The notes beneath the pieces are model-generated. The model saw only the letters and a program-made list of their open reading frames with translations. It made no database searches and was not told the origin of the DNA. Shown in pieces: positions 1 to 39,594 of a stretch of 39,594 nt of DNA; position 1 is the first letter of the stretch; each line of letters starts with the position of its first letter. The stretch comes from a virus, in IMG/VR virus record IMGVR_UViG_3300021440_000062, positions 1 to 39,594 of that record. One strand, 5' to 3'. The position numbers were made by a program, and so were the translations under genes.

Positions 1-98
1 AATCAATTAGTATCGGATTCCGTGAGGCTATCCGGGCATATCGAAACATCAAGCGTATGAATCAGTTTGATCGTGCTGGCAAGTTTTCACCATTCTGA
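1..98 (+). CDS. 5'-truncated small basic protein (partial)
   Basis: This is the 3' part of the 37-aa gene that is complete at 36504-36617. The window starts at the second base of a codon, and the stop is TGA at 96-98. The readable residues include AIRAYRNIKRMNQFDRAGKF, which are basic and polar. It precedes the recombinase gene by 8 nt, so it is the first gene of the recombination operon. I do not recognise the family. It is partial only because the contig begins here. Confidence 0.6.
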   Translation, partial: SISIGFREAIRAYRNIKRMNQFDRAGKFSPF

Positions 99-106
99 GG
101 TAACAA

Positions 107-727
107 ATGGGCGTCCACAAAAAACTCATGCAAGCGCGTATGGCGCTGCAAAGCAAACAACTCAAAAAATCTGGCGTAAATGCGTTTGCTAAATACGAAT
201 ATTTTGAGCTAGGCGATTTTCTGCCAACAGTTCAATCTATTTTTAATGATGTTGGTTTGTGTGGCGTTGTGTCATTCGCTCCAGATGTTGCGACACTGAC
301 AATTACCGATTGCGATGATGGAACATCGTTAGCAATTCAATCGCCAATGGCAGAAGCAAATCTAAAGGGCTGTCACCCAATCCAAAACCTAGGAGCAGTG
401 GAAACATACACACGCCGTTATCTGTGGGTTACGGCTATGGAAATTGTTGAGCATGACGCACTAGACGCAACAACTGGAAAAGAAGCGCCACGCCATGCAC
501 CAGCAACAACTGAGCAATCTATCGTAAAACCTGAACGTGTAGATGTGCTGATTAACGTCGCAGACAACATGCGCTCATACTACTCAAATAACGATGTGAT
601 TGCAGCGTTTGAAGAATACGAATCCGTCACAGACGCTGAAGAACGCGCTTATGTCTGGGCGCTACTCAAACCAGATAGCAAACTTCGTGCAGCGATTAAA
701 GCACACGGTCAATCACTGAAAGGTTAA
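107..727 (+). CDS. erf: ERF-family single-strand annealing recombinase, version A
   Basis: Probable ssDNA-annealing protein of the ERF superfamily, which promotes RecA-independent recombination and genome circularisation in P22-like phages. The N-terminal part (about residues 1-125) has the family layout: a KYEYFELGDFLP stretch followed by a GLCGVVSF strand, then ETYTRRYLWVTAMEI, which resembles the Y-x-RRY motif of ERF proteins. From about residue 130 the protein carries a tail nearly identical to that of the version B protein at 36626-37294, although the N-terminal parts are unrelated at sequence level. SD-like GAGGTAA lies just before the ATG. The SSB-like gene follows 2 nt downstream, which fits a joint role on ssDNA. 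Length (206 aa) matches P22 Erf (about 204 aa). Confidence 0.75.
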   Translation: MGVHKKLMQARMALQSKQLKKSGVNAFAKYEYFELGDFLPTVQSIFNDVGLCGVVSFAPDVATLTITDCDDGTSLAIQSPMAEANLKGCHPIQNLGAVETYTRRYLWVTAMEIVEHDALDATTGKEAPRHAPATTEQSIVKPERVDVLINVADNMRSYYSNNDVIAAFEEYESVTDAEERAYVWALLKPDSKLRAAIKAHGQSLKG

Positions 728-729
728 AA

Positions 730-972
730 ATGAGCGATTTCGACAATACAAATACAGGCGTCTTGTTCAAGAACGAAGATAAACAGTCTGCCAATCATCC
801 TGATTACAAAGGATCAATAAATGTGAATGGTCAAGAATTTTGGCTTTCCGCATGGATTAAACCATTGAAGAAAGACCCGTCTAAACGATTTATGTCTATT
901 TCTGTCAAACCAAAAGAAGCAAAGCAAGCGCCTGCTTCTGACCCTGATTTTGTTGACTCGATTCCGTTCTGA
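730..972 (+). CDS. Small SSB-like protein with acidic C-terminal tip
   Basis: An 80-aa protein that I infer binds ssDNA together with the ERF protein encoded 2 nt upstream. The body (about residues 9-58) looks like a small beta-rich OB-type domain with conserved Trp residues (EFWLSAWIKPLKKDP). The last residues, DPDFVDSIPF, copy the acidic tip of bacterial SSB proteins that recruits partner enzymes. The near-identical copy at 37297-37563 has a slightly longer linker (KQAAKPAPA). An ssDNA role is inferred from the tail and the neighbour; I cannot assign the domain family with certainty. Confidence 0.65.
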   Translation: MSDFDNTNTGVLFKNEDKQSANHPDYKGSINVNGQEFWLSAWIKPLKKDPSKRFMSISVKPKEAKQAPASDPDFVDSIPF

Positions 973-1114
973 TGGCTGCTTAGGTCGCTCCTAAGATGAA
1001 CTGAGAAGCGGAAACCGCAACGGGATAAATCAGTGATGTATAGGCCAAATGACACAGTGTTAAGTCGCTTGAATACTTTGGCAAATCCCGACCAATTTAA
1101 CTAAAGGAAAAATC
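973..1114 (+). other. Intergenic segment with two small hairpins (left copy only)
   Basis: This 142-nt gap has no counterpart in the right copy, where a MazG-like gene and a 66-aa gene occupy the place. It holds a hairpin at 979-995 (CTTAGG / CCTAAG, loop TCGCT) and a second at 1008-1018 (GCGG / CCGC, loop AAA). Neither is followed by a U-run, so they do not look like intrinsic terminators. They may be a processing signal or the scar of a gene replacement. The SD for the next gene (AAAGGAAAAATC) closes the segment. Confidence 0.4.
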
Positions 1115-1303
1115 ATGTTTGCACTTTTGAATGATCTGGCTAAAGCCGCTGTTGGTGTTGTAGTTGAAACTCCTGTAGCGATTGCTGCCGATGTTTTGAC
1201 TCTTGGTGGTTCAATTACTGACAAAGATGAGCCATACACAGCAACTGCACTAAAACGTGTTATGGACAATGTTGAACACGCTGTTACACCGGATAAATCA
1301 TGA
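1115..1303 (+). CDS. Small hydrophobic protein of unknown function
   Basis: A 62-aa protein. Residues 8-30 are Ala/Val-rich and amphipathic to hydrophobic (AKAAVGVVVETPVAIAADVL), which could be a membrane-associated helix. A polar segment with DKDEPYTATALKRVM follows. A clear SD (AAAGGA) precedes the ATG, and the stop overlaps the next start. The gene is present only in the left copy of the repeat. Small Ala/Val-rich proteins of this style are common in phage early regions, but I cannot name a function. Confidence 0.6.
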   Translation: MFALLNDLAKAAVGVVVETPVAIAADVLTLGGSITDKDEPYTATALKRVMDNVEHAVTPDKS

Positions 1304-1464
1304 CTGAATACATTATTGCAATCAAGATTAAATCACCTGTAGAGTTACCTAAAGATATTGGTAATATTCTTGATAAGGTATCTCAAACAGCGTACAACCA
1401 TATCGCAGCAAAAGGTATTCAGCCTGATGTCTCTGCGGAACTTCGTAAAACGATTAAAAGCTAG
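1300..1464 (+). CDS. 54-aa conserved small protein (left copy)
   Basis: Starts at an ATG overlapping the stop of the upstream gene (ATGA) and ends with TAG at 1462-1464, which is also the first half of the operator dyad 1462-1476. The protein (MTEYIIAIKIKSPVELPKDI...) is identical in the right copy at 38183-38347, although the DNA has synonymous differences. That pattern indicates purifying selection and a real gene. Predicted alpha/beta and soluble. Function unknown. Confidence 0.65.
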   Translation: MTEYIIAIKIKSPVELPKDIGNILDKVSQTAYNHIAAKGIQPDVSAELRKTIKS

Positions 1465-1476
1465 GGTAAATCCCTA
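1462..1476. promoter_or_regulatory. Operator-like 15-bp dyad, site 1
   Basis: TAGGGTAAATCCCTA, with TAGGG and CCCTA as perfect inverted arms around 5 bases. The same element occurs at 38345 and, in the form TAGGGTAAACACCTA or its reverse, at 26701, 29941 and 36440. Downstream comes TTTGACAATATAGG and then AAACAGGAGTT, the SD of the gene at 1528. I infer a protein-binding site controlling the transcript that starts here. The binder is unknown; the Cro/YdaS-like protein at 30275 is a candidate. Confidence 0.6.
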
Positions 1477-1527
1477 TTCAAATAGCTTTGAGTTAGTTTG
1501 ACAATATAGGCTAAACAGGAGTTAGAA

Positions 1528-1914
1528 ATGACAGCACATAAACACGCAGAAAACATGCTTCTTTATGCACAAGATGCAGCAGAGACAGAAACACCGTGGG
1601 AGAGATGGGAATACCTGTGCGGAGGAAAATGGTTGTCACTATTTAGCAATCCAAATTGGCAGAGTGGATTTGTATTTCGCCGTAAACCAAAGACCCGCAA
1701 AGTAACGGTTGATGGTATTGACTATGAGTTTCCAGAGCCTTTGAAAGAGTGGCCTAAAGGAAATAAAGAAGCATGGGTTGTAAGTGGTCATTGTATTTTT
1801 CCTTTGAGGGATGAGTTAATCGCAGCAGTTAAGCTTGGAATAGCTCAAGCCACAAAACAAGGTGCAGAAGCACAACTCAAAGCCATTCAAGCAGTCTGCG
1901 GGGTATTGAAGTGA
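1528..1914 (+). CDS. Conserved phage protein of unknown function (MTAHKHAENM type, left copy)
   Basis: A 128-aa protein beginning MTAHKHAENMLLYAQDAAET, followed by a Trp-rich middle (PWERWEY) and KVTVDGIDYEFPEPLKEWPKG. The middle resembles small phage proteins that describe W-containing beta-sheets, but I cannot assign a function. The right copy (38557-38946) shares both ends and differs in the central 20 residues. SD AACAGGAG lies 8 nt before the ATG. The 3' end overlaps the GTG start of the next gene by 4 nt; in the right copy a G-run one base shorter moves the stop to just upstream instead. Confidence 0.65.
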   Translation: MTAHKHAENMLLYAQDAAETETPWERWEYLCGGKWLSLFSNPNWQSGFVFRRKPKTRKVTVDGIDYEFPEPLKEWPKGNKEAWVVSGHCIFPLRDELIAAVKLGIAQATKQGAEAQLKAIQAVCGVLK

Positions 1915-2141
1915 CTCCCGAAGAAAAAGAGCAACAGTCAGCAAATGATCTTGTTACTCACATTGTTAAACGTGTGAGTGATAGCGTATTTATCGCAAAG
2001 TCAAATGCTGGTACTTATGCTTATCAAAACAATCCAAACCCTGACGATCACTCAGCAGCTAGGACAGCAATTATTCAATCTGCAATTGAAAAAGCAGAGT
2101 GTGGGATTGTTAGGGCTATTTTGAAAGAGGCTTTGAAATGA
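1911..2141 (+). CDS. 76-aa acidic/helical hypothetical protein (left copy)
   Basis: Starts with GTG inside the GTGA overlap with the upstream stop, so translation is probably coupled. The sequence (TPEEKEQQSANDLVTHIVKR...) is charged and mostly helical. It differs from the right copy (38948-39178) at one residue, P versus Q in the NN(P/Q)NPDD stretch. No motif is recognised. The stop overlaps the next start as ATGA. Confidence 0.6.
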   Translation: MTPEEKEQQSANDLVTHIVKRVSDSVFIAKSNAGTYAYQNNPNPDDHSAARTAIIQSAIEKAECGIVRAILKEALK

Positions 2142-2764
2142 TTGAAGCAATGAAACAGTGGCTCGAGGCTTTGGAGAATGTAGAAGCTCTTATTGAGCAT
2201 CAATACACAGGAACAAGAGAAGCAATGTCCTACCTGCAAAACACGGCGGACGATGCGCAAGAGGCACTAACATCCCTTCGAGCCGTTATCGAGCAGGCAG
2301 AGAAGCAGGAGCCGGTGGCATGGGTACATAAGGCGCACAAGCATGTTATTTGGTTCGCTCCAGTCGATATGGAAGCGGCTAATTTGTCACCACTCTACCC
2401 CGCACCAGCACAGCCAACGCATGCCATACACCCAGATAATTGCATCTGGAAACGCAACGGACATGAAGCATGTACTACTGCACAGCCAGTGCAGGATCGT
2501 TGCGCACACTGCGACGATACAGGCGACGTGCATTCGATTGATGGTCAGTGGCGTGGCAAGTGCATCTGCAAGTCGACACAGCCAGCACTCAAGCCGCTGA
2601 GTGAGCATTACGAAGCATTAGAACCAGCGTTAGAAAATTTGGTGAACGTCTGCAATAACAGTGTTTTTATGTCCACAACAGACGAAGTAATTTCAGCAGA
2701 GGCCGCGCTTGAACGATTGCACAAAGCACGAAAAGCCGCCAATGCACTCAAGGAACAAAAATGA
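2138..2764 (+). CDS. Mosaic MIEAMKQ-type protein, left copy only
   Basis: A 208-aa protein beginning MIEAMKQWLEALENVEALIE, a helical opening shared with the unrelated-locus gene at 28307-28735. In the middle, QEPVAWVHKAHKHVIWF and PLYPAPAQPT are the proline/glutamine linker modules frequent in phages of environmental proteobacteria. At about residues 107-147 there is a Cys/His cluster (C-x7-HEAC, CAHCDDTGD, GKCICKS) that looks like a DnaJ-type zinc ribbon. It ends with a helical C-terminus. The entire gene is absent from the right copy, where the upstream ATGA junction leads straight into the next gene. Function unknown. Confidence 0.6.
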   Translation: MIEAMKQWLEALENVEALIEHQYTGTREAMSYLQNTADDAQEALTSLRAVIEQAEKQEPVAWVHKAHKHVIWFAPVDMEAANLSPLYPAPAQPTHAIHPDNCIWKRNGHEACTTAQPVQDRCAHCDDTGDVHSIDGQWRGKCICKSTQPALKPLSEHYEALEPALENLVNVCNNSVFMSTTDEVISAEAALERLHKARKAANALKEQK

Positions 2765-2970
2765 CAATCGCACAAGAGATTAGAAACGCTGCTATCAACT
2801 GGCCTCAGTTTATTGGTGATGTTGAGTGCGATGTTGCGCAGGCTTTTGATGATGTTCCATACAACCGCATTCACACTTATTTAACAAGTGCACCAGACGA
2901 TGGATGCTGGAAAGGTTATGAATATCAAGCCCGTATATTTATGCTCTTAGTAGCAGAGGCGCTTGAATGA
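2761..2970 (+). CDS. 69-aa hypothetical protein (left copy)
   Basis: ATG overlaps the upstream stop. The first 20 residues (MTIAQEIRNAAINWPQFIGD) and the last 12 (RIFMLLVAEALE in this copy) are shared with the 56-aa version at 39175-39345. The middle is different and longer here (AFDDVPYNRIHTYLTSAPDDG). A conserved frame around a replaced core suggests local recombination. No function is recognised. It is coupled to the next gene by a 4-nt overlap. Confidence 0.55.
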   Translation: MTIAQEIRNAAINWPQFIGDVECDVAQAFDDVPYNRIHTYLTSAPDDGCWKGYEYQARIFMLLVAEALE

Positions 2971-3209
2971 GCCTACAAAAAAACATCATAGAACTTCTAA
3001 GAAAGAACGAGGAAGGGCTAACCACAAACCAGATTTGCACTCAGCTTAATGTTGAGAAAAAAGCTGTGCAACAATCAATGCGGCGACTCAGGGAATACTG
3101 CGTTTATATCGACCACTGGACTATCCCAAGGAACATTAAGCGCCCAACTGCTGTATTTTGTTTAGCCTATCTTCCTCCAGATTGCCCGTCGCCCGATGAA
3201 AAGACCTAA
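2967..3209 (+). CDS. Winged-helix DNA-binding protein (left copy)
   Basis: An 80-aa protein with the plan of a small winged helix: helix (QKNIIELLRKNEEG), helix-turn-helix (LTTNQICTQLNVEKKAVQQSMRRL), then a short wing (EYCVYIDHWTI). It is identical in protein sequence to 39342-39584. It probably regulates phage or host transcription, but no target can be read from the sequence. The 3' end overlaps the next gene by 14 nt. Confidence 0.6.
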   Translation: MSLQKNIIELLRKNEEGLTTNQICTQLNVEKKAVQQSMRRLREYCVYIDHWTIPRNIKRPTAVFCLAYLPPDCPSPDEKT

Positions 3210-3573
3210 TCCGTTAGTCGTTAAAGTAGCACTAGAGAATGTGCGAAAACAGTTGTTGAACTTTCGTATAGCTCTCTTTGAGTTGGATGAAGGCGCAGAT
3301 TGTCAAGAGTTCGCGTTACTGCTAAACGATCAGGTCTATATCATTGCCAAGGCTTTTGAGTTACTTGGTAAAACGGATACATTGGAATACAGAAAACTGA
3401 AGTCAGCATCAAAGACTTTGGTAGAGTGTTGTAACAGAGGGTTTACATGGCGCAAATCAGATGCGGTTACACTGGATAACGCAGTTGAGATATTTGCAGA
3501 TCATGTAAATAAAATCCCAATCAAGACTATTATTCAAGCAACAGAGATTTTTCAGCAGGAGTTAAGAAAATGA
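3196..3573 (+). CDS. 125-aa helical hypothetical protein
   Basis: A mostly helical, charged protein (MKRPNPLVVKVALENVRKQL...) with two Cys residues (DCQEF, VECCNRGF). It overlaps the winged-helix gene upstream by 14 nt and rtcB downstream by 4 nt, so it lies in one operon with them. Its first 24 bases recur at 39571-39594, where the contig stops. Continuing 39594 with base 3220 restores this gene without a gap. Function not recognised. Confidence 0.6.
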   Translation: MKRPNPLVVKVALENVRKQLLNFRIALFELDEGADCQEFALLLNDQVYIIAKAFELLGKTDTLEYRKLKSASKTLVECCNRGFTWRKSDAVTLDNAVEIFADHVNKIPIKTIIQATEIFQQELRK

Positions 3574-4760
3574 AACAAGTAATTAAAGAAGCAAATGCAC
3601 GTCCTATAAAAATTTGGACGGATGAAGTTGAAGACTCTGCATTAACGCAATTAAAGAACCTATCTAGACTTCCATTCATTGCAAGCAATGGTGTTGCATG
3701 TATGCCGGATGTACATGCTGGTATTGGTTCTACTGTTGGCACTGTGATTGCTACAGACAAGGCAGTTATACCTGCTGCTGTTGGTGTAGATATTGGGTGT
3801 GGAATGAACGCGGTCCGATTGTCTTTAAAAGCATCTGATTTGCCTGAAAACTTAAAGCCTTTGCGAGATGAAATTGAACGCAAGATTCCTCTAGGTGTTG
3901 GCGGCGCACACGATCACAGCACCGATATTGGAGAAATTACACAAGAACTACATAAATCAGTGATTAACCCTGTTTTTAAAGGAGATTTAAATAAATTCCA
4001 TGCAAAAGCAGCAAGTCAAATGGCATCACTTGGTAGTGGAAATCATTTTATTGAAATTTGTCTTGACGAAAATCAAGATGTATGGGTAATGCTACATTCC
4101 GGCTCTCGTGGAATTGGAAACATGATTGGTTCTCATTACATTGAGATTGCTAAACGCAATATGGAAAAGTTTTTTATCTCTTTGCCGGACGATAATTTGG
4201 CTTATTTTCCAGAAAATACAGAAGATTTTGAAAGCTATATGTGTGCTGTTGGATGGGCGCAAAACTATGCTTTTGAAAATCGCCGCCGCATGATGATTTA
4301 TGTAATTGAAGCAATGCAAGGAATAATTACAAAACCTTTTACTATCACACAAGAGGCTATTAACTGTCACCATAATTATGTAGAGCGTGAAAACCATTTC
4401 GGTAGAAATATGTGGGTTACACGAAAAGGTGCAATTAGAGCTAGAAAAGGCGATCTAGGAATTATTCCGGGTTCAATGGGTCAACGCAGTTATATTGTTC
4501 GAGGAAAAGGAGATTTACAGTCTTATTGCTCTTGCTCTCATGGCGCTGGACGTGTTATGTCACGCGCAGAAGCAAAGAGAAAATTTAGCTTAACTGATTT
4601 GATTGAACAAACAAAAGGCGTTGAGTGTAGAAAAGATGAATCTGTAATTGATGAAATTCCAGCTTCATACAAAGACATTGATACTGTTATGGCAAATCAA
4701 ACTGATTTGGTTGAGGTTGTTCACCAACTAAAACAAGTTTTATGCGTCAAAGGCAATTAA
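3570..4760 (+). CDS. rtcB: RtcB-type RNA ligase
   Basis: GTP- and Mn-dependent RNA ligase joining 2',3'-cyclic phosphate or 3'-phosphate ends to 5'-OH ends, as in tRNA repair. At 396 aa it is full length (E. coli RtcB is 408 aa). Visible motifs: MPDVHAGIGSTVG (45-57), GVDIGCGM with metal ligands D74 and C77, LGSGNHFIE, HSGSRGIGN, CHHNYVERE, and SHGAGR with the probable guanylated histidine H324. All expected active-site residues appear present. The gene is coupled by ATGA to the upstream hypothetical gene. A strongly paired intergenic element follows directly. I infer repair of host or phage tRNAs cut by anticodon nucleases, or ligation of a phage RNA; neither is shown by the sequence. Confidence 0.93.
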   Translation: MKQVIKEANARPIKIWTDEVEDSALTQLKNLSRLPFIASNGVACMPDVHAGIGSTVGTVIATDKAVIPAAVGVDIGCGMNAVRLSLKASDLPENLKPLRDEIERKIPLGVGGAHDHSTDIGEITQELHKSVINPVFKGDLNKFHAKAASQMASLGSGNHFIEICLDENQDVWVMLHSGSRGIGNMIGSHYIEIAKRNMEKFFISLPDDNLAYFPENTEDFESYMCAVGWAQNYAFENRRRMMIYVIEAMQGIITKPFTITQEAINCHHNYVERENHFGRNMWVTRKGAIRARKGDLGIIPGSMGQRSYIVRGKGDLQSYCSCSHGAGRVMSRAEAKRKFSLTDLIEQTKGVECRKDESVIDEIPASYKDIDTVMANQTDLVEVVHQLKQVLCVKGN

Positions 4761-5199: not shown

Positions 5200-5211
5200 T
5201 TCATTGGCACC

Positions 5212-5246
5212 CAAAAAGAAAGCCCCTACACCGAAATGTAAGGGCT
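5212..5246 (-). terminator. Rho-independent terminator of the late operon
   Basis: On the minus strand, arms 5237-5246 and 5221-5230 pair over 10 bp (one G-U) around a 6-nt loop, followed by TTCTTTTTG. It lies about 140 nt beyond the endolysin stop. The T-rich tails of this terminator and of the plus-strand one are complementary to each other, giving a compact bidirectional stop. Confidence 0.8.
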
Positions 5247-5292
5247 AAATCCATGAAGATGGACAACAGGAGACTTCAACGAAACTAATAGA

Positions 5293-30278: not shown

Positions 30279-30481
30279 GAAAAGGAAACCGACTATTGCG
30301 AAAGTGGCTAGACAAACAGCCACAAGGCTCACGCGCACACTTAGCTCGATTGTGCAATGTTGACCCTTCTACTATTGGGAAACTTGTTCCACGTAGGAAG
30401 GATGTGTTAGCTCGTAGCCCTTCGCCAGATTTGGCTGAGGCAATTGAACGATTTACAGGAATTGGGGTGAACACATGGTAA
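30275..30481 (+). CDS. Cro/YdaS-like helix-turn-helix protein
   Basis: A 68-aa DNA-binding protein. The HTH reads SRAHLARLCNVDPSTIGKLV (about residues 19-38), with LLRKWLDKQ before and LAEAIERFTGIGV after, a Cro/YdaS layout. It is the only obvious small repressor in the window and is encoded close to the divergent promoters with the dyad 29941-29955, so it is the best candidate to bind the TAGGG dyads. No CI-type partner is seen. Overlaps the methyltransferase start by 7 nt. Confidence 0.7.
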   Translation: MRKGNRLLRKWLDKQPQGSRAHLARLCNVDPSTIGKLVPRRKDVLARSPSPDLAEAIERFTGIGVNTW

Positions 30482-32085
30482 GTGAATTCCATGTTGTCGA
30501 AGAAAAAGAATTCTTCGCGCCCGTTTCTGCTGATGTGGTTGATGGATTAGTTGGTCAGTATCAATCCATGCGCGGCAAGATCGAGGCGATGGCATCGCGC
30601 ATGACGGATGTGGACGCTCAGACGGCCATGCACTATTTCTTGGACGCAGCCGCCCGCCATGACCGCCAACGCAGCGCACCCGCTGTTGCAGAGCTATTCA
30701 GGCTGGCTCCAGCCATCGCCAGCCTCAACGCGGCATACTGGTCGAAGGCGCTCCAACTCACTGACGTGCTGGACACCATGCCTCAAGCACGACGGGATGC
30801 GTGGAACGAGCAAATCCGAAACCCAGAGGGAAACAGGCGTGACAGGCACTCCAAGGACTGGATCAACCCACCGCTGCCAGACTTTACCGATGACAACGTG
30901 CGCAACACGCTGGGCGACCTGCTGCGCATGCGCGGGCAGTTCTTGGCCGAGCGCGTGGACGGCATCTTTCGTGGCCTGAGCGGCGAGCACGTCACTAATG
31001 CGCCAGAAGCCTTCGGCAAACGCATGATTGTGGCATTTGTGCTGGGCGACTACTACGCTACCAACCATGGCCGCGCTGGTCTCATCAACGACCTGCGGGC
31101 CGTCATCGCAAAATTCATGGGCCGCGATGAACCGAAGTGGCACGCCACGTCTGGGCTTATCGAGACGCTGAAATACCGCTGGGGTGAGTGGGTTGCCGTC
31201 GATGGTCATGCCCTGCGAATCCGGCTCTACAAAAAGGGCACGGCGCACATTGAAGTTCACCCGGACATGGCGTGGCGGCTCAACTGCGTGCTGGCGCAGA
31301 TGCACCCGCGTGCCATCCCCTCTGAGTTCCGGCAGCGCCCGACCAAGCGACCGAAAGAAATCAAGCCCATGCAGCGCCCACTCCCCTTCGCCGTGGTCGA
31401 GGAACTTGCCAACTTCAAGCGCGACCGCCACGGTGCCCGGTGGTCATTCGGATACGGCAGCAGCGAGGGCAAACACAGCCGGGAGGAAGCCGTCCGCATC
31501 ATCGAGAGCATCGGCGGCGCGAAGACTGAAAACGGCTTCGGGTTCGACTATGACCCTACGGACGTTCTGGGCGACATCGTTGCCAGCGGCTGCGTGCCAG
31601 ATCAAAAGTCGCATCAGTTCTACCCGACACCCGAGAAACTGGCCCGCATCGCCGTCGAAGCCGCTGAGATTGACCACATGCACACGGTATTGGAGCCGAG
31701 CGCCGGTCAAGGCGGCTTGGCCGACATCATCGGCGAGAACACGAAGACGCTGGACTGCGTGGAGCTGTCGTCCCTGCACTGCAAGGTGCTGGAGGCCAAG
31801 GGCCATCGCGTGACCAATGCGGATTTTCTGGCGCTGCACACAAACCGCGAACTCTACGACTGCGTGGTGATGAACCCGCCCTTTGATCAAGGCCGCTGGC
31901 AAGCGCATCTTGAGCATGCGGCCAAGCTGGTGAAGCATGGCGGGCGGCTGGTTGCCATCCTGCCCAGTGGAGCCAAGAGCCGCGATTTACTATCCGGCTT
32001 CGATCTTGAGTGGCGCGGGCCATTCGACAACGAATTCCCCGGCACATCGGTGTCCGTGGTGATTCTTGTGGCAGACAAAAAATGA
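30475..32085 (+). CDS. DUF4942 plus N6-adenine DNA methyltransferase
   Basis: A 536-aa two-part protein. The N-terminal ~370 residues match the DUF4942 type (AEERVDGIFRGLSGEHVTNA-like region near 155-180, then TLKYRWGEWVAVDGHALRIR). The C-terminal part is a class I SAM-dependent methyltransferase: QFYPTPEKLARIAVEAAEI, motif I LEPSAGQGG (406-414) and motif IV NPPF (467-470), which specifies N6-adenine (or N4-cytosine) methylation. G+C is much higher than in the neighbours (30901-30960 has 43 of 60; 33481-33540 has 24 of 60), so it was probably acquired from a high-GC genome. It probably protects phage DNA from restriction, as no nuclease partner is seen. Confidence 0.85.
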   Translation: MVSEFHVVEEKEFFAPVSADVVDGLVGQYQSMRGKIEAMASRMTDVDAQTAMHYFLDAAARHDRQRSAPAVAELFRLAPAIASLNAAYWSKALQLTDVLDTMPQARRDAWNEQIRNPEGNRRDRHSKDWINPPLPDFTDDNVRNTLGDLLRMRGQFLAERVDGIFRGLSGEHVTNAPEAFGKRMIVAFVLGDYYATNHGRAGLINDLRAVIAKFMGRDEPKWHATSGLIETLKYRWGEWVAVDGHALRIRLYKKGTAHIEVHPDMAWRLNCVLAQMHPRAIPSEFRQRPTKRPKEIKPMQRPLPFAVVEELANFKRDRHGARWSFGYGSSEGKHSREEAVRIIESIGGAKTENGFGFDYDPTDVLGDIVASGCVPDQKSHQFYPTPEKLARIAVEAAEIDHMHTVLEPSAGQGGLADIIGENTKTLDCVELSSLHCKVLEAKGHRVTNADFLALHTNRELYDCVVMNPPFDQGRWQAHLEHAAKLVKHGGRLVAILPSGAKSRDLLSGFDLEWRGPFDNEFPGTSVSVVILVADKK

Positions 32086-32285
32086 AACCGAATCCGCGTA
32101 TGGTATTGCACTGTTCGCGGTGCGGTAAAACGCTACTAAACAAGCCTGCCGGATGGATAGCAGACATGGCCTTCGGGCCTGTTTGTTTCGCAAAAATCAA
32201 AGGTGCAACAGTTCAAATCCAAGAGTCTAAGATCGTGCGGGATGATAAGACTGTTGATATGTTTGAGGTGAAAAACAAATGTTAG
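32082..32285 (+). CDS. 67-aa zinc-ribbon-like protein
   Basis: Start at 32082, in an ATGA overlap with the methyltransferase stop; a longer frame lies in the shadow. Protein: MKPNPRMVLHCSRCGKTLLN, then KPAGWIADMAFGPVCFAKIK. The C-x2-C plus a later Cys fit part of a zinc ribbon. G+C drops back to the phage average within it. Function unknown; the coupling suggests it travels with or follows the methyltransferase. Confidence 0.6.
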   Translation: MKPNPRMVLHCSRCGKTLLNKPAGWIADMAFGPVCFAKIKGATVQIQESKIVRDDKTVDMFEVKNKC

Positions 32286-32455
32286 TAAATGCTATAAATT
32301 TCCCCGGCCCTGCTTTATGGCAAGGTTTGATGATGTGCGCTATCCCATTTTTTTTATGGCTTGCTTTACACAAAGATGGCAAACATATCAAGCTTGCTTC
32401 AATAGGATATTGTGCTTTAGGGTTTGTCTTATTCTTTGTAATTGGAGTGAAATAG
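32279..32455 (+). CDS. 58-aa two-span membrane protein
   Basis: ATG overlapping the upstream stop by 7 nt. Hydrophobic helices LWQGLMMCAIPFFLWLAL (about 13-30) and LASIGYCALGFVLFFVIGV (about 39-57), with a charged loop HKDGKHIK. The gene ends 31 nt before the paired element at 32486. No family recognised. Confidence 0.55.
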   Translation: MLVNAINFPGPALWQGLMMCAIPFFLWLALHKDGKHIKLASIGYCALGFVLFFVIGVK

Positions 32456-32485
32456 AATATAATTTAATCGTGAATTCTTAGATAT

Positions 32486-32575
32486 AGCCGTGGACAAGAC
32501 GGTTACGCTAAGGGTTCAACCCTCGCCTAGTGGCCCCTCTGCTTGTCCCAGAGGTTTGCCCTAGGCGTTTTTTTT
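32486..32575 (+). terminator. Terminator-like element with complementary hairpin loops
   Basis: Hairpin 1 (AGCCGT 32486-32491 / ACGGTT 32499-32504) has loop GGACAAG. The second element has an outer stem CGCCTAG/CTAGGCG (32524-32530, 32561-32567) enclosing CCTCTG/CAGAGG (32536-32541, 32549-32554) with loop CTTGTCC. The two 7-nt loops are perfect complements, so they can form a kissing or pseudoknot contact. Eight T follow (32568-32575). It ends 10 nt before the ATG of the DUF1376 gene, which has no normal SD. It probably is an intrinsic terminator or attenuator controlling the replication genes. Confidence 0.7.
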
Positions 32576-32585
32576 GGCTATTTTT

Positions 32586-33338
32586 ATGCACTATTACAAA
32601 CGCAATATTGGAGACTATGCTAAACGGACGAGCAGGCTTACGCTTTTGCAGCATGGTGTTTACACGCTTTTGCTAGATGCTTGTTATGACCGTGAGGTTT
32701 TTCCAACTGAGGAACAGGCAATTCAATGGCTTTGGGCAAGCAGCGCAGAGGAAATTGAAGCTATCAAATTTGTCTTGAATCGGTACTTCATTAAGTCTGA
32801 TGATGGAACATTTACACATGACGATGTGCTTGCTGATCTGTGTGAATATCATGCAATGGCAGACAGAAACAAGCTCATCGCCATTGAAAGAGAAACGAGA
32901 CGTAAGGAATTACGCACGAGTCGTGCACACACCGTAAACGGCGCGTCACGAGATATGCACGAGTCGCCACCTAACCAAGAACTAAGAACTAAGAACAATA
33001 AACCATTAACAACTAACCAAGAAACAAAATATACATCGCGCAAGCGCGTTTCAAATACTTTTCAAAAGCCTGATGATGTAGATGAGTCAATCTGGAATGA
33101 TTTTCTTGAAATCAGGAAAGCTAAGCGGTCGCCTTTGACTGAAACAGCATTAGCCGGAATCAGATCAGAATCTGATAAAGCAGGGCTATCAATGAATGAT
33201 GCGCTGCGAACATGTTGCCTTCGTGGTTGGCAAGGGTTTAAGGCAGACTGGATAACAAAAACTGACAAGCCTAAGACTTTTCACAATGTCGCTGGTATGG
33301 ATTACACGCAAGGAGTGAAGCCAGATGGAAGTTTCTAA
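32586..33338 (+). CDS. DUF1376 replication-associated protein
   Basis: A 250-aa protein. The N-terminus MHYYKRNIGDYAKRTSRLTL followed by LQHGVYTLLLDACYDRE is the DUF1376 signature, found next to replication genes of many phages (an O/DnaT-like role is assumed). The middle has a basic linker and the C-terminal domain resembles a DnaT/YdaV-associated winged region (DVDESIWNDFLEIRKAKRSP ... TCCLRGWQGFKADWI). ATG at 32586 is preferred; a TTG at 32574 lies in the T-run. No SD precedes it. It overlaps the dnaC-like gene by 14 nt. Confidence 0.85.
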   Translation: MHYYKRNIGDYAKRTSRLTLLQHGVYTLLLDACYDREVFPTEEQAIQWLWASSAEEIEAIKFVLNRYFIKSDDGTFTHDDVLADLCEYHAMADRNKLIAIERETRRKELRTSRAHTVNGASRDMHESPPNQELRTKNNKPLTTNQETKYTSRKRVSNTFQKPDDVDESIWNDFLEIRKAKRSPLTETALAGIRSESDKAGLSMNDALRTCCLRGWQGFKADWITKTDKPKTFHNVAGMDYTQGVKPDGSF

Positions 33339-34080
33339 CTCTGACGTACAAAAAAGAACTTGCCTTACTCATGGAGAGTATGAGCAATCTTTTGTCGAAA
33401 TCCTTGGTAGAAAGATTTACAAAAACTGTCCCAAGTGCATTGCTGAACAAAGCAAGAAAGAAGATTCTTTGAAAACAAAACTAATTGAAGAAAGACGACT
33501 TCGTGAAATTGAGCGATGCCGTGAAAAGTCTTTGATACCAAAACGGTTTAAGTCTTGTAGTTTTGAAAATTTCAAAATATCCAATGATGGACAAGCTGCG
33601 GCGCTTAAGTCTGCGATGGAGTTTGTATCCGATTGGGAGGAAGTAGAAAAGTCTGGGCGATGCTTGATTTTTTCCGGCAAGGTAGGAACAGGAAAAACGC
33701 ATTTAGCATGTGCTATTGCCAACAATCTTGTTGAACTGTCCGTTTTATCAAAACTGTACACAGTAGCTGGATTGATGCGCTACGTGAAGGAATCATTCTC
33801 AAGTGATTCGCAAGAATCGGAATCAATGATTATTGATGAGTTATCAAATCTTGATTTGCTACTTTTGGATGAAGCAGGAATGGACTACGGAACAGATTTT
33901 AACAAAGCCACGTTGTTTGAGATTTTGAATCGTAGATATGAAAACATGAAGCCAACAATCTTAATGACGAATCTAGACATTAACGCTCTGCGTGAATATT
34001 TGGGTGATCGTCTGCTAGACAGAATGAGAGAGGGCGGCGGCAAGTTGGTTTCATTCACATGGGAAAGCCAACGAAGATAA
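33325..34080 (+). CDS. DnaC/IstB-like helicase loader ATPase
   Basis: A 251-aa AAA+ ATPase that I infer loads host DnaB at the phage origin. An N-terminal zinc-finger-like part has C13, H16, C35 and C38 (TCLTHGEY, CPKC). Walker A is GKVGTGKT (118-125), Walker B LLLLDE (178-183), sensor I at ILMTNLDI, and the end DRLLDRMREGGGKLVSFTW has the arginine of the last conserved box. It follows the DUF1376 gene, the usual arrangement. Confidence 0.88.
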   Translation: MEVSNSDVQKRTCLTHGEYEQSFVEILGRKIYKNCPKCIAEQSKKEDSLKTKLIEERRLREIERCREKSLIPKRFKSCSFENFKISNDGQAAALKSAMEFVSDWEEVEKSGRCLIFSGKVGTGKTHLACAIANNLVELSVLSKLYTVAGLMRYVKESFSSDSQESESMIIDELSNLDLLLLDEAGMDYGTDFNKATLFEILNRRYENMKPTILMTNLDINALREYLGDRLLDRMREGGGKLVSFTWESQRR

Positions 34081-36503: not shown

Positions 36504-36617
36504 ATGAAAGCAATTTTTCAATCAATTAGTATCGGATTCCGTGAGGCTATCCGGGCATATCGAAACATCAAGCGTATGAATCAGTTTGATCGTGCTGGCA
36601 AGTTTTCACCATTCTGA
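36504..36617 (+). CDS. 37-aa small basic protein, complete copy
   Basis: ATG at 36504 with SD ACAGGAGTAAGCA. Protein MKAIFQSISIGFREAIRAYR, then NIKRMNQFDRAGKFSPF. Basic and amphipathic. Bases from 36520 on are identical to the window start, so this copy shows the missing 5' end of the first feature. Function unknown. Confidence 0.6.
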   Translation: MKAIFQSISIGFREAIRAYRNIKRMNQFDRAGKFSPF

Positions 36618-36625
36618 GGTAACAA

Positions 36626-37294
36626 ATGTCTGTTTACAAAGCAATCAATGCAGTACAAAAAGCACTAGCAAAATCTGGAATCTCAAAAGATTCTGAAAAC
36701 AAGTTTGATGGTTATAAGTTTCGTGGAATTGACGCTGTTTACAACGCGCTTTCACCTTTATTGGCAGAGCATGGATTGTGTATTTTGCCGCGCATGATTT
36801 CTCGCATTTGCGACGAACGCCTTTCCCAAAAAGGAGGAGCGTTGTTTTATGTAACGGTTGAGGCAGAGTTTGATTTTGTGTGTGCTGAGGATGGTTCTAA
36901 GCACACAGTTCGCACATTTGGCGAAGCGATGGATAGAGGCGATAAGGCTACCAATAAAGCCATGTCAGCGGCCTACAAATATGCGGCTTTCCAAACCTTT
37001 GCAATTCCAACAGAGGGCGATAACGATGCTGATGCACAGAGCCATGATGTAAAACCAAAACACGCACCAGCTACAACAGAGCAATCCATAGTCAAGCCTG
37101 ACCGTGTAGATATTCTGATTTCCGTAGCCGACAACATGCGTTCACACTATGCAAGCGATGATGTTATTGGAGCGTTTGAAGAATACGAAACTCTGACAGA
37201 TTCAGAAGAACGCGCTTATGTCTGGGCGCTACTCAAACCAGATAGCAAACTTCGTGCAGCAATTAAAGCACACGGTCAATCACTGAAAGGTTAA
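36626..37294 (+). CDS. erf: ERF-family single-strand annealing recombinase, version B
   Basis: A 222-aa ERF protein. The N-terminus MSVYKAINAVQKALAKSGIS, NKFDGYKFRGIDAVYNALSP, LLAEHGLCILPRM and NKAMSAAYKYAAFQTFAIPT follow the ERF family pattern closely. From about residue 148 the tail (HAPATTEQSIVKP, RVDILISVADNMRSHYASDD ... SKLRAAIKAHGQSLKG) is nearly the same as in version A at 107-727. Head and tail thus evolve separately. Followed by the SSB-like gene after 2 nt. Confidence 0.85.
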   Translation: MSVYKAINAVQKALAKSGISKDSENKFDGYKFRGIDAVYNALSPLLAEHGLCILPRMISRICDERLSQKGGALFYVTVEAEFDFVCAEDGSKHTVRTFGEAMDRGDKATNKAMSAAYKYAAFQTFAIPTEGDNDADAQSHDVKPKHAPATTEQSIVKPDRVDILISVADNMRSHYASDDVIGAFEEYETLTDSEERAYVWALLKPDSKLRAAIKAHGQSLKG

Positions 37295-37296
37295 AA

Positions 37297-37563
37297 ATGA
37301 GCGATTTCGACAATACAAATACAGGCGTCTTGTTTAAGAACGAGGATAAACAATCCGCTAATCATCCTGATTACAAAGGTTCAGTAAACGTGAATGGTCA
37401 AGAATTTTGGTTGTCTGCATGGATTAAACCATTGAAGAAAGACCCGTCTAAGCGATTCATGTCTATCTCTGTCAAACCAAAAGAATCAAAGCAAGCGCCT
37501 AAGCAAGCTGCAAAGCCAGCGCCAGCTTCTGATCCTGATTTTGTTGATTCGATTCCTTTCTGA
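37297..37563 (+). CDS. Small SSB-like protein, right copy
   Basis: An 88-aa version of 730-972 with 8 more residues in the linker (KQAAKPAPA) and the same acidic tip DPDFVDSIPF. The body is otherwise almost identical. Same role inferred: ssDNA binding with ERF and NinB. A basis for comparison of the two haplotypes. Confidence 0.65.
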   Translation: MSDFDNTNTGVLFKNEDKQSANHPDYKGSVNVNGQEFWLSAWIKPLKKDPSKRFMSISVKPKESKQAPKQAAKPAPASDPDFVDSIPF

Positions 37564-37573
37564 GATAAAAAAC

Positions 37574-37993
37574 ATGATTAACGAAATCAAACAATGGTTT
37601 GAGGCCGCAGTGCCTGAGCCAACAGACAAAAGCCGTGCTGTTCAAATTGGCATCCACTATGAGGAAGTTGCCGAAATGCTTGATGCTGTTGGAGATGATT
37701 TCCCAGATATGGAATGGTTATCTGCTTACTACAAAATAACATCCCCCGGAATTGGTGTTGACGAAGTTGACCGAATAGCCATGCTTGATGCGCTCTGCGA
37801 CCAAATTGTTACCGCCATTGGTGTGGCACACATGTTCGGAATGGACATTGAAGGCGCATTGGCAGAGGTGAATCGCAGCAACTGGAGCAAATTTGTTGAA
37901 GGCGTTCCGCACTTTGACGCAAACGGAAAGATCATCAAAGGCCCAAGCTACACACGACCTGAATTGTCAAATTTTGTTTTAGGTGCAAAATGA
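37574..37993 (+). CDS. MazG-like nucleotide pyrophosphohydrolase
   Basis: A 139-aa all-alpha NTP pyrophosphatase-like protein, start at 37574. The family's metal-binding EExxE / DxxD pattern is suggested by HYEEVAEMLDAVGDDF and DALCDQIVTAIGVAHMFGMD. ALAEVNRSNWSKFVEGVPHF and GKIIKGPSYTRPELSNF match the C-terminal signature of phage MazG-like proteins. It probably hydrolyses (d)NTPs or ppGpp-like nucleotides. Present only in the right copy. Confidence 0.8.
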   Translation: MINEIKQWFEAAVPEPTDKSRAVQIGIHYEEVAEMLDAVGDDFPDMEWLSAYYKITSPGIGVDEVDRIAMLDALCDQIVTAIGVAHMFGMDIEGALAEVNRSNWSKFVEGVPHFDANGKIIKGPSYTRPELSNFVLGAK

Positions 37994-38190
37994 AATTTAA
38001 GTTTTATATGGATGTTTGGCCCGGTATTGATTTTTCTTATGCAGGAGCAACAACAAATCCAACATGGGAAAAACCGCCAAACGGAAAACGTATTTCTTTT
38101 GAAGTTGAGATTCCAGATCACCTTATTGGGAAAGGTGTAGATTTCAAAGTTCAAGAAACTTCAATTGCAAAAGAGGTTAAAAATGACTGA
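37990..38190 (+). CDS. 66-aa beta-rich hypothetical protein
   Basis: Overlaps the upstream stop (ATGA). MKFKFYMDVWPGIDFSYAGA, then NGKRISFEVEIPDHLIGKGV: alternating strands, no motif. Present only in the right copy. It overlaps the next start by 8 nt. Confidence 0.55.
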   Translation: MKFKFYMDVWPGIDFSYAGATTNPTWEKPPNGKRISFEVEIPDHLIGKGVDFKVQETSIAKEVKND

Positions 38191-38347
38191 ATACATCATT
38201 GCAATCAAGATTAAATCACCTGTAGAGCTACCTAAAGACATTGGAAATATTCTCGATAAGGTATCTCAGACAGCGTACAACCACATTGCAGCAAAAGGTA
38301 TCCAGCCTGATGTATCTGCGGAACTTCGGAAAACGATTAAAAGTTAG
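38183..38347 (+). CDS. 54-aa conserved small protein (right copy)
   Basis: Protein identical to 1300-1464 with synonymous DNA changes. The start at 38183 matches the left copy. The TAG stop again is part of the operator-like dyad. Function unknown. Confidence 0.65.
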   Translation: MTEYIIAIKIKSPVELPKDIGNILDKVSQTAYNHIAAKGIQPDVSAELRKTIKS

Positions 38348-38359
38348 GGTAAATCCCTA
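38345..38359. promoter_or_regulatory. Operator-like 15-bp dyad, site 5
   Basis: TAGGGTAAATCCCTA, identical to site 1, followed by GTTTGACAATATAGGCTAAACAGGAG, as at 1496-1521. In this copy the SD serves the 49-aa gene rather than the MTAHKH gene. Confidence 0.6.
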
Positions 38360-38410
38360 TTCAAATAGCCTTGAGTTAGTTTGACAATATAGGCTAAACA
38401 GGAGTTAGAA

Positions 38411-38560
38411 ATGAGTTATATCTTTAGTTTCTTTTGCGTACTGATCGGGGAAATTGTTTCTTACTTTTTGGTAGGTCACGGGCATACTTTTCCTGTTCTA
38501 TATGGCGCTGCCATTGCTTTAACAGCGCACAAAGTTCTATTTTTGGATCAATCAAAATGA
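38411..38560 (+). CDS. 49-aa two-span membrane protein (inserted gene)
   Basis: ATG directly uses the AACAGGAGTTAGAA leader that serves the MTAHKH gene in the left copy. Hydrophobic: MSYIFSFFCVLIGEIVSYFL and VLYGAAIALTAHKVLFL. Its end overlaps the next ATG (ATGA). The gene looks inserted exactly at the start codon. Function unknown. Confidence 0.6.
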   Translation: MSYIFSFFCVLIGEIVSYFLVGHGHTFPVLYGAAIALTAHKVLFLDQSK

Positions 38561-38946
38561 CAGCACATAAACACGCAGAAAACATGCTTCTCTATGCGCA
38601 AGATGCAGCAGAGACAGAAACACCGTGGGAACGTTGGGAATATAAACTTTGTGGATACTCAAACCCGTGGATTAACATTGAATGTAGTCCAGATTGGTCT
38701 TTTTTGTGTGATTACCGCCGTAAACCAAAGACACGCAAAGTAACAGTTGATGGTGTTGACTATGAGTTTCCAGAGCCTTTGAAAGAGTGGCCCAAAGGAA
38801 ATAAAGAAGCATGGATTTTAAGTGGTGACTGCATTTTTCCTTGCAAGGATGAGTTGAGCGCAGCAGTTAAGCTTGGAATAGCTCAAGCTACAAAAGAAGG
38901 CGCAGAAGCACAACGAAAAGCCATTCAAGCAGTCTGCGGGTATTGA
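38557..38946 (+). CDS. Conserved phage protein (MTAHKHAENM type, right copy)
   Basis: Start at 38557 by homology to 1528-1914. 129 aa. The centre (EYKLCGYSNPWINIECSPDW) differs from the left copy; the ends are almost the same. One G less near 38937 ends the protein at CGY rather than CGVLK and leaves 1 nt between its stop and the next GTG. Confidence 0.65.
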   Translation: MTAHKHAENMLLYAQDAAETETPWERWEYKLCGYSNPWINIECSPDWSFLCDYRRKPKTRKVTVDGVDYEFPEPLKEWPKGNKEAWILSGDCIFPCKDELSAAVKLGIAQATKEGAEAQRKAIQAVCGY

Positions 38947-38947
38947 A

Positions 38948-39178
38948 GTGACTCCCGAAGAAAAAGAGCAACAGTCAGCAAATGATCTAGTTACTCACAT
39001 TGTTAAACGTGTGAGTGATAGCGTATTTATCGCAAAGTCAAATGCTGGTACTTATGCTTATCAAAACAATCAAAACCCTGACGATCACTCAGCAGCTAGG
39101 ACGGCAATTATTCAATCTGCAATTGAAAAAGCAGAGTGTGGAATTGTTAGGGCTATTTTGAAAGAGGCTTTGAAATGA
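38948..39178 (+). CDS. 76-aa acidic/helical hypothetical protein (right copy)
   Basis: GTG start as in the left copy (1911). One amino-acid difference (NNQNPDD). Here its stop leads directly into the MTIAQE gene; the 208-aa gene found between them in the left copy is missing. Confidence 0.6.
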   Translation: MTPEEKEQQSANDLVTHIVKRVSDSVFIAKSNAGTYAYQNNQNPDDHSAARTAIIQSAIEKAECGIVRAILKEALK

Positions 39179-39345
39179 CAATCGCACAAGAGATTAGAAA
39201 CGCTGCTATCAACTGGCCTCAGTTTTTGGGTGATATTGAGAGTGAAATTGTGTATTCGTTTTATGGCTCTATGTTGTTTTTCCCATCAAATATAGATTTT
39301 GATTGCCGTGTATTTATGCTCCTAGTAGCAGAGGCACTGGAATGA
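39175..39345 (+). CDS. 56-aa hypothetical protein (right copy)
   Basis: Shares the first 17 residues and the last 10 with 2761-2970, but the centre (IESEIVYSFYGSMLFFPSNI) differs. ATGA overlap at both sides. Function unknown. Confidence 0.55.
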   Translation: MTIAQEIRNAAINWPQFLGDIESEIVYSFYGSMLFFPSNIDFDCRVFMLLVAEALE

Positions 39346-39584
39346 GCCTACAAAAAAACATCATAGAACTTCTAAGAAAGAACGAAGAAGGTCTAACAAC
39401 AAACCAGATTTGCACTCAGCTAAATGTTGAGAAAAAAGCAGTTCAGCAATCAATGCGGCGACTTAGAGAATACTGCGTTTATATCGACCACTGGACTATC
39501 CCAAGGAACATTAAGCGCCCAACTGCTGTATTTTGTTTAGCCTATCTTCCTCCAGATTGCCCGTCGCCCGATGAAAAGACCTAA
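39342..39584 (+). CDS. Winged-helix DNA-binding protein (right copy)
   Basis: 80-aa protein identical to 2967-3209 in sequence; the last 127 bases of the window, which include its 3' half, are also identical in DNA. Winged-helix layout as described for the left copy. Confidence 0.6.
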   Translation: MSLQKNIIELLRKNEEGLTTNQICTQLNVEKKAVQQSMRRLREYCVYIDHWTIPRNIKRPTAVFCLAYLPPDCPSPDEKT

Positions 39585-39594
39585 TCCGTTAGTC
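39571..39594 (+). CDS. 3'-truncated 125-aa hypothetical protein (partial)
   Basis: The first 8 codons (MKRPNPLV) of the gene complete at 3196-3573. The contig stops here; joining base 39594 to 3220 restores the gene, supporting circularity of the molecule. Confidence 0.6.

Follow-up and report, generated by a model that had tools for sequence, protein, structure and literature searches.

In the plasmid copy-number RNAs ColE1 RNA I/II, seven-nucleotide loops pair completely and the loop sequence sets the specificity; the two molecules come from opposite strands. The put RNAs of phage HK022 are pairs of stem-loops of ~70 nt, of which putL sits just downstream of its early promoter, and the cryo-EM paper reports neither a kissing loop nor a built-in terminator (PMC9378689). 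In the corrinoid riboswitches of P. megaterium metE and A. halodurans cobT, a kiss between the aptamer loop and the expression platform controls a terminator, for which compensatory mutants were tested; the kiss promotes the terminator in one case and favours read-through in another (PMC10653944). Pairing by the CI RNA of P4 controls termination ahead of the replication genes (PMC4825925).

We analysed a window of 39,594 nucleotides, the whole of the IMG/VR phage record IMGVR_UViG_3300021440_000062, whose gene content includes Erf, SSB, NinB, NinG, a DnaC-like loader, an endolysin, portal and head genes. Upstream of its replication genes lie two hairpins, HP1 and HP2, with complementary loops. 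As in HK022 put, there are two long stem-loops in nascent early phage RNA, near the promoter; unlike put, whose description contains neither feature (PMC9378689), they have kissing loops and HP2 is by its sequence a terminator within the element. The corrinoid riboswitches also have an upstream loop that can kiss the loop of a downstream hairpin, the decision there lying between terminator and read-through, but that kiss comprises ~3–5 pairs and is tied to an aptamer that binds a ligand, whereas here there are seven pairs, no aptamer was seen and the kissing hairpin is itself the terminator. Like P4 CI/C4 (RF01695) with isrK/seqA (RF01394), the element is an untranslated leader upstream of replication genes; its structure is different, however, and CI pairs with the separate sites seqA and seqC, whereas in the present case a single short leader holds both partners. 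In contrast to ColE1 RNA I/II, both loops are within one transcript. The features, all on the + strand, are as follows.

32279–32455, + strand: small upstream ORF of 58 amino acids, ending inside the promoter (ORF list)
32436–32463, + strand: predicted promoter TTGTAA-16 nt-TATAAT, ending just upstream of HP1
32471–32518, + strand: HP1, with outer stem TGAATTCTTAG/CTAAGGGTTCA and inner stem TAGCCGT/ACGGTTA (RNA fold, covariation)
32492–32498, + strand: HP1 apical loop GGACAAG, pairing partner 1 (complement of 32542–32548)
32511–32523, + strand: possible middle hairpin AGGGT-TCA-ACCCT, which shares nucleotides with the HP1 3′ arm and cannot form together with the HP1 base
32524–32567, + strand: HP2 terminator hairpin, CGCCTAG/CTAGGCG, GGC/GCC and CCTCTG/CAGAGG (RNA fold, covariation helices 4 and 5)
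32542–32548, + strand: HP2 apical loop CTTGTCC, pairing partner 2 (covariation, as for loop 1)
32568–32575, + strand: T8 tract of the terminator (sequence)
32586–33338, + strand: first gene, DUF1376 primosomal protein/O-like replication initiator (PHROGs 6451, E 1.3e-37, and 678, E 2.6e-20)
33325–34080, + strand: second gene of the operon, DnaC-like helicase loader (PHROG 50, E 8.2e-73)

The original prediction had described two loops that are exact complements, a 7-bp outer stem around the second hairpin followed by eight T, and a DUF1376 start codon 10 nt further on without a Shine–Dalgarno (SD) sequence. All of this agrees with our analysis: the loops are exact reverse complements at the positions given, the outer HP2 stem occupies 32524–32530/32561–32567 and runs directly into the T8 tract, and the ATG at 32586 follows 10 nt past the T run, without an SD sequence in the window copy. 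HP1, however, is longer than had been given; its outer stem begins at 32471 and the whole element spans ~32471–32575. The + strand of this interval is predicted to fold into two hairpins with z = −6.55, and 0 of 200 shuffles were equally stable. Neither GGACAAG nor CTTGTCC occurs as a hairpin loop anywhere else in the window. With its G+C-rich stem directly before a T run on the transcribed strand, HP2 is an intrinsic terminator by sequence; its stem is interrupted by an internal loop, and a generic terminator scan of the window did not list it. Transcription is likely to start at ~32470, the base of HP1. A known aptamer upstream would mark a metabolite riboswitch; none was found among Rfam families at gathering score, and since HP1 stands at the likely transcript start there appears to be no room for one.

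Rfam searches with the window and a canonical family member (L296) gave nothing at gathering score, L296 showing sub-threshold matches only. The C4 model (RF01695) matched neither of the two, with P4 itself scoring 74.9 bits; the isrK (RF01394) and C4 models match P4, not the present element. The int-alpA RNA (RF02996) likewise stands immediately before DUF1376 genes in contigs of related phages, yet it is a different family: its model did not match the window element and did match four other loci, where it lies before DUF1376 in the same place as the present element (L026:2553–2620, L028:2910–2977, L034:2910–2977 and L042:2911–2978). Other terminator-ended structured leaders of different architecture stand within a few hundred nucleotides upstream of DUF1376 in L009, L021, L040 and L048, and these too have complementary segments, for example in L021 (TGCAGTA with the hairpin loop TACTGCA) and L040 (GCAATA with TATTGC). 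A motif of approximate form CGGCTAG..AAGTCATGAG..CGAAAAG..CCTGCCG recurs upstream of DUF1376 in L008, L017, L024, L027, L054, L055 and L057; these loci gave no Rfam match at gathering score, and the motif may represent a further RNA family or be remotely related to int-alpA.

In L007, the closest relative by DUF1376 protein, the element is present and its loops differ by a compensatory change (GTACAAG/CTTGTAC); a scan of loci for two hairpins with complementary loops added L011, L019, L025, L123, L129 and L137. A loop-blind pattern, AAGCCNTCANNGGCTGACCC, for which only the 3′ arm of HP1 and the linker served as template, gave matches in 63 viral stretches, in 62 of which the covariance model found the element (60 complete, two cut by a contig end). 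L294 was discarded as a chance match to this pattern in coding sequence, without hairpins, and strand-reversed mirror matches were likewise discarded. A last pattern search, in which only the edges of loop 2 were fixed, gave more members, and loop complementarity was perfect in 11 of 11 rows (10 distinct), one of which, L422, was found by DNA similarity. The element is also carried by the uncultured GenBank phage MW202710.1. Pattern and covariance-model searches together yielded 52 distinct elements in environmental phage contigs. Twelve words occur as loop 1 (GGACAAG, GTACAAG, GTACGAG, GAATCAG, GGACTAG, GTACCAG, GTACTAG, GGTCGAG, GGTCAAG, GGTTCAG, GTAGAAG and GTAACAG), always with G first and AG last.

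The covariance model R1 scored 53.5 bits on the window (E 3e-12), which is not an independent score since the window is among the 42 building sequences. Specificity was controlled with 80 unrelated phage loci (715 kb), in which R1 found no match at E up to 0.01; these were taken from the matches of a loop-centred pattern and of the pattern GGTTACGCTAA, nearly all due to chance. The exact pattern CTAAGGGTTCAACCCTCGCC gave zero matches. A weak model match in the window itself (5206–5285, − strand, E 0.049) is an ordinary hairpin with a T tract near the lysis gene, in which no loop pair was seen. Searches of phages for DNA similarity around the element led to Vibrio and Thalassomonas phages, where the match was to the beginning of DUF1376; in three of these phages the model detected no element. 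Host genomes were negative (0 of 399 Burkholderiales, 0 of 6 others), a result that shows little as it lacked a positive control.

Covariation of the loop pair in relatives, which the original prediction had proposed as a check, was found, both in the compensatory change of L007 and in the loop-blind sample, where 40 of 40 distinct complete members keep all seven loop–loop pairs. This sample was taken to remove a selection bias: the 42-row alignment A2 was drawn from a list requiring loop complementarity, so that its 100% kissing helix is partly selection. Covariation over the whole structure was 0.458 in A2, against 0.170 in shuffles and 0.04–0.07 in slid controls; for 28 less redundant members the values were 0.515, 0.175 and 0.04–0.08, with 96.5% of cells paired. 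Helices 1 and 2, which form HP1, are 96–99% paired and show double changes in 12–13 of 19 pairs (42 and 28 relatives). The kissing helix of the 28 members is 100% paired, with double changes at four of its seven positions, two of which show all four Watson–Crick pair types. G-U pairs, common in the stems, are absent from the 294 kissing cells. Over paired columns G-U outnumbers A-C by 154 to 14, which identifies + strand RNA as the functional molecule. The structure and its conservation are firm. With 52 distinct relatives and perfect loops in 40 of 40, the element is not a product of chance, and its hairpin loops are kept complementary by compensatory changes, as expected of a kissing-loop RNA. 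It represents a structured RNA family that is absent from Rfam 15 and of which environmental phage contigs contain 50 or more distinct versions.

The surroundings of the element are also conserved. Most of 32 aligned members have a -10-like box, often extended (TGNTATAAT-like), ~7 nt before HP1, and all members listed have a T-rich tract after the HP2 stem, which in members other than the window has a GGGG-type base. The ATG lies 18–23 nt from the start of the T run in 24 of 28 members, a near-constant spacing of ~19 nt, and GGAG or GGGG stands between the two in most relatives, with the window copy lacking such an SD sequence. The layout is constant: a promoter comes first, then HP1, at whose base the transcript is likely to start, then a short linker, the HP2 terminator, usually an SD sequence, and the start codon. 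The genes behind the element are the first of early replication modules and of unrelated types, including DUF1376 (MHYYKRN), MARIRTIKPEFW, MAGDWIK, MKRPSFQFYPSDW and others, sometimes preceded by a small ORF or an HNH-like gene; types in relatives were read from the sequences, and family tests were made for window genes only. Upstream ORFs in relatives are often small HTH-like proteins, as judged by eye, and no family match was found for the 58-amino-acid ORF of the window. A large DNA methyltransferase gene lies upstream of the element (30475–32085; PHROG 6263, E 4.3e-187). Elsewhere the window encodes an RtcB-type RNA ligase (3570–4760; PHROG 1075, E 8.9e-149), and its ends, 1–3219 and 36520–39594, repeat each other imperfectly (89–100% identity, piecewise), so that Erf-like and phrog_18768 ORFs each occur twice; this looks like an overlap between ends that come from strain variants of a circularly permuted genome, or like an effect of the assembly.

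We propose, with a probability of about 0.58, that the element is a conditional intrinsic terminator (attenuator) in the 5′ leader of the replication operon, with read-through set by loop–loop pairing. The gap between terminator and start codon is too small for a promoter, so the first gene would be transcribed only by read-through of HP2, and it is mainly for this reason that we call the terminator conditional. The anatomy supports an attenuator role well, and the originally predicted role in deciding whether transcription enters the replication genes is well founded, given the position at the operon entrance and this promoter-free gap. Transcription would begin at the base of HP1, which would fold first. 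Once the apical part of HP2 has left the polymerase, its loop would be free to form seven base pairs with the HP1 loop, and a race between kissing and closure of the lower HP2 stem would set the share of polymerases that stop at ~105 nt rather than enter the initiator gene. HP2 would terminate in vivo, and the kiss would alter read-through. Polymerase speed, a protein of phage or host, or competing RNA copies might bias the choice.

The sign of this effect cannot come by analogy, given the opposite signs of the kiss in the corrinoid riboswitches. Mean energies were −24.5 kcal/mol for HP1, −23.2 for HP2 and −8.6 for the isolated 7-bp loop duplex. When the helices were modelled as rods with a 9-nt linker, a coaxial kiss was incompatible with complete closure of HP2 unless both hairpins bend by ~90 degrees or more; with the 5-nt linker of the window, a kiss with closed HP2 needed a bend of >100 degrees. 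As long as the lower stem of HP2 stayed open, the kiss was always reachable. This coarse geometry, from crude rods where real bulges can bend more, suggests that the kiss opposes terminator closure, in which case kissing would mean read-through. A middle pairing of the HP1 3′ arm with the linker, AGCC/GGCT, can form in 47 of the 50 distinct members, the window (AGGG/CCCT) and L137 (AGTC/GACT) having variants of it. This pairing precludes the HP1 base and suggests a second conformation, for which the evidence is moderate since most copies are invariant; in the rod model that conformation did not rescue the kiss with HP2 closed. Alternatively, the kiss could stabilize one compact RNA or act between molecules.

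An action between molecules is the substance of another explanation, in which the terminated ~105-nt transcript pairs with the nascent loops of further copies of the same phage and causes termination, as a control of copy number or superinfection. The RNA would then resemble plasmid antisense RNAs or the P4 CI RNA, with the loop words as specificity groups. The element does own both a promoter and a terminator, and its twelve loop words are matched within every element. Apical stems vary by 0.8–1.1 bits per column, against 0.3–0.45 for the outer stems and linker, and loops differ in 13 of 24 element pairs that have ≤2 differences over 59 core columns, mostly by two matched substitutions; such fast apical change may, however, be relaxed constraint. 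Both contigs with two elements carry unlike words, GTACGAG and GGACTAG in L305 (1245–1363 and 3573–3693) and GGACTAG and GTACCAG in IMG/VR contig 3300022748_000017 (L292, L424), although in two genomes this could be chance, given the loop frequencies. Different genes lie behind each copy in these contigs. The variation and the unlike words fit a loop-keyed recognition that may operate in cis or in trans. Against a trans-acting RNA, a second target hairpin with these loop words is absent from the window. No tyrosine integrase, serine integrase or S24 repressor was found in 25 contigs, which may be incomplete; classical lysogenic immunity is therefore unlikely and is disfavoured as the main function. 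On balance we consider regulation in trans unlikely. A combined version for these phages, in which no integrase was detected, seems to us slightly less probable still: each phage would have its own loop key, the nascent leader would read itself by the kiss, and terminated leader RNA would act in trans as a competitor of nascent copies with the same key. If it were true, phage genomes would be counted and replication-gene transcription shut off by copy number, with phages of other keys in the same cell ignored.

The two-hairpin RNA might instead bind its own polymerase and make it resistant to HP2 and later terminators, in the manner of put. An early transcript that opens with two long stem-loops recalls putL after its promoter (PMC9378689), and the sequence of the outer stems and of the linker GGCTGA is conserved, as would be expected if a protein read it. 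Membership of the put type, which had been suggested originally, was not borne out: the best R1 match in the HK022 genome (14 bits, E 0.053, − strand near gene O) is not significant, and neither the kissing pair nor the built-in terminator has a counterpart in the put paper (PMC9378689). We regard processive antitermination of this kind as improbable.

It is very unlikely that HP2 is an ordinary insulating terminator that separates operons, with HP1 protecting the 5′ end and the kiss compacting the RNA or aiding translation. The near-constant ~19 nt between T run and start codon, with the adjacent SD sequence, would suit such an arrangement, but insulating a promoter from its own gene would defeat the promoter, and a 7-bp loop helix with zero G-U in 294 cells is not obviously required for stabilization. 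The element might also act as DNA, as a replication origin, cruciform or operator with inverted repeats that merely resemble RNA hairpins. This reading suits its position beside the replication initiator gene but is scarcely tenable, being contradicted by the G-U/A-C asymmetry and at odds with the one-strand T tract and the fixed-distance promoter.

For the attenuator that we favour, a search of the literature on phage kissing loops combined with terminators or with antitermination found no description of the layout, subscription journals lying largely outside its coverage. As far as this literature and Rfam show, a terminator hairpin whose loop is tied, through seven covarying Watson–Crick pairs, to a hairpin upstream is a new attenuation layout, and it is accompanied by 12 natural loop specificities. 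The sign of the kiss and any action in trans are what we infer from the model and the loop variation. If confirmed, the element would offer an aptamer-free switch for real-time study of kissing against terminator closure, together with a ready-made set of regulators that are probably orthogonal. Whatever type of initiator the phages themselves use, the element stands at the entrance to the replication operon, and it is probably a sequence-keyed switch for transcription of the replication genes.
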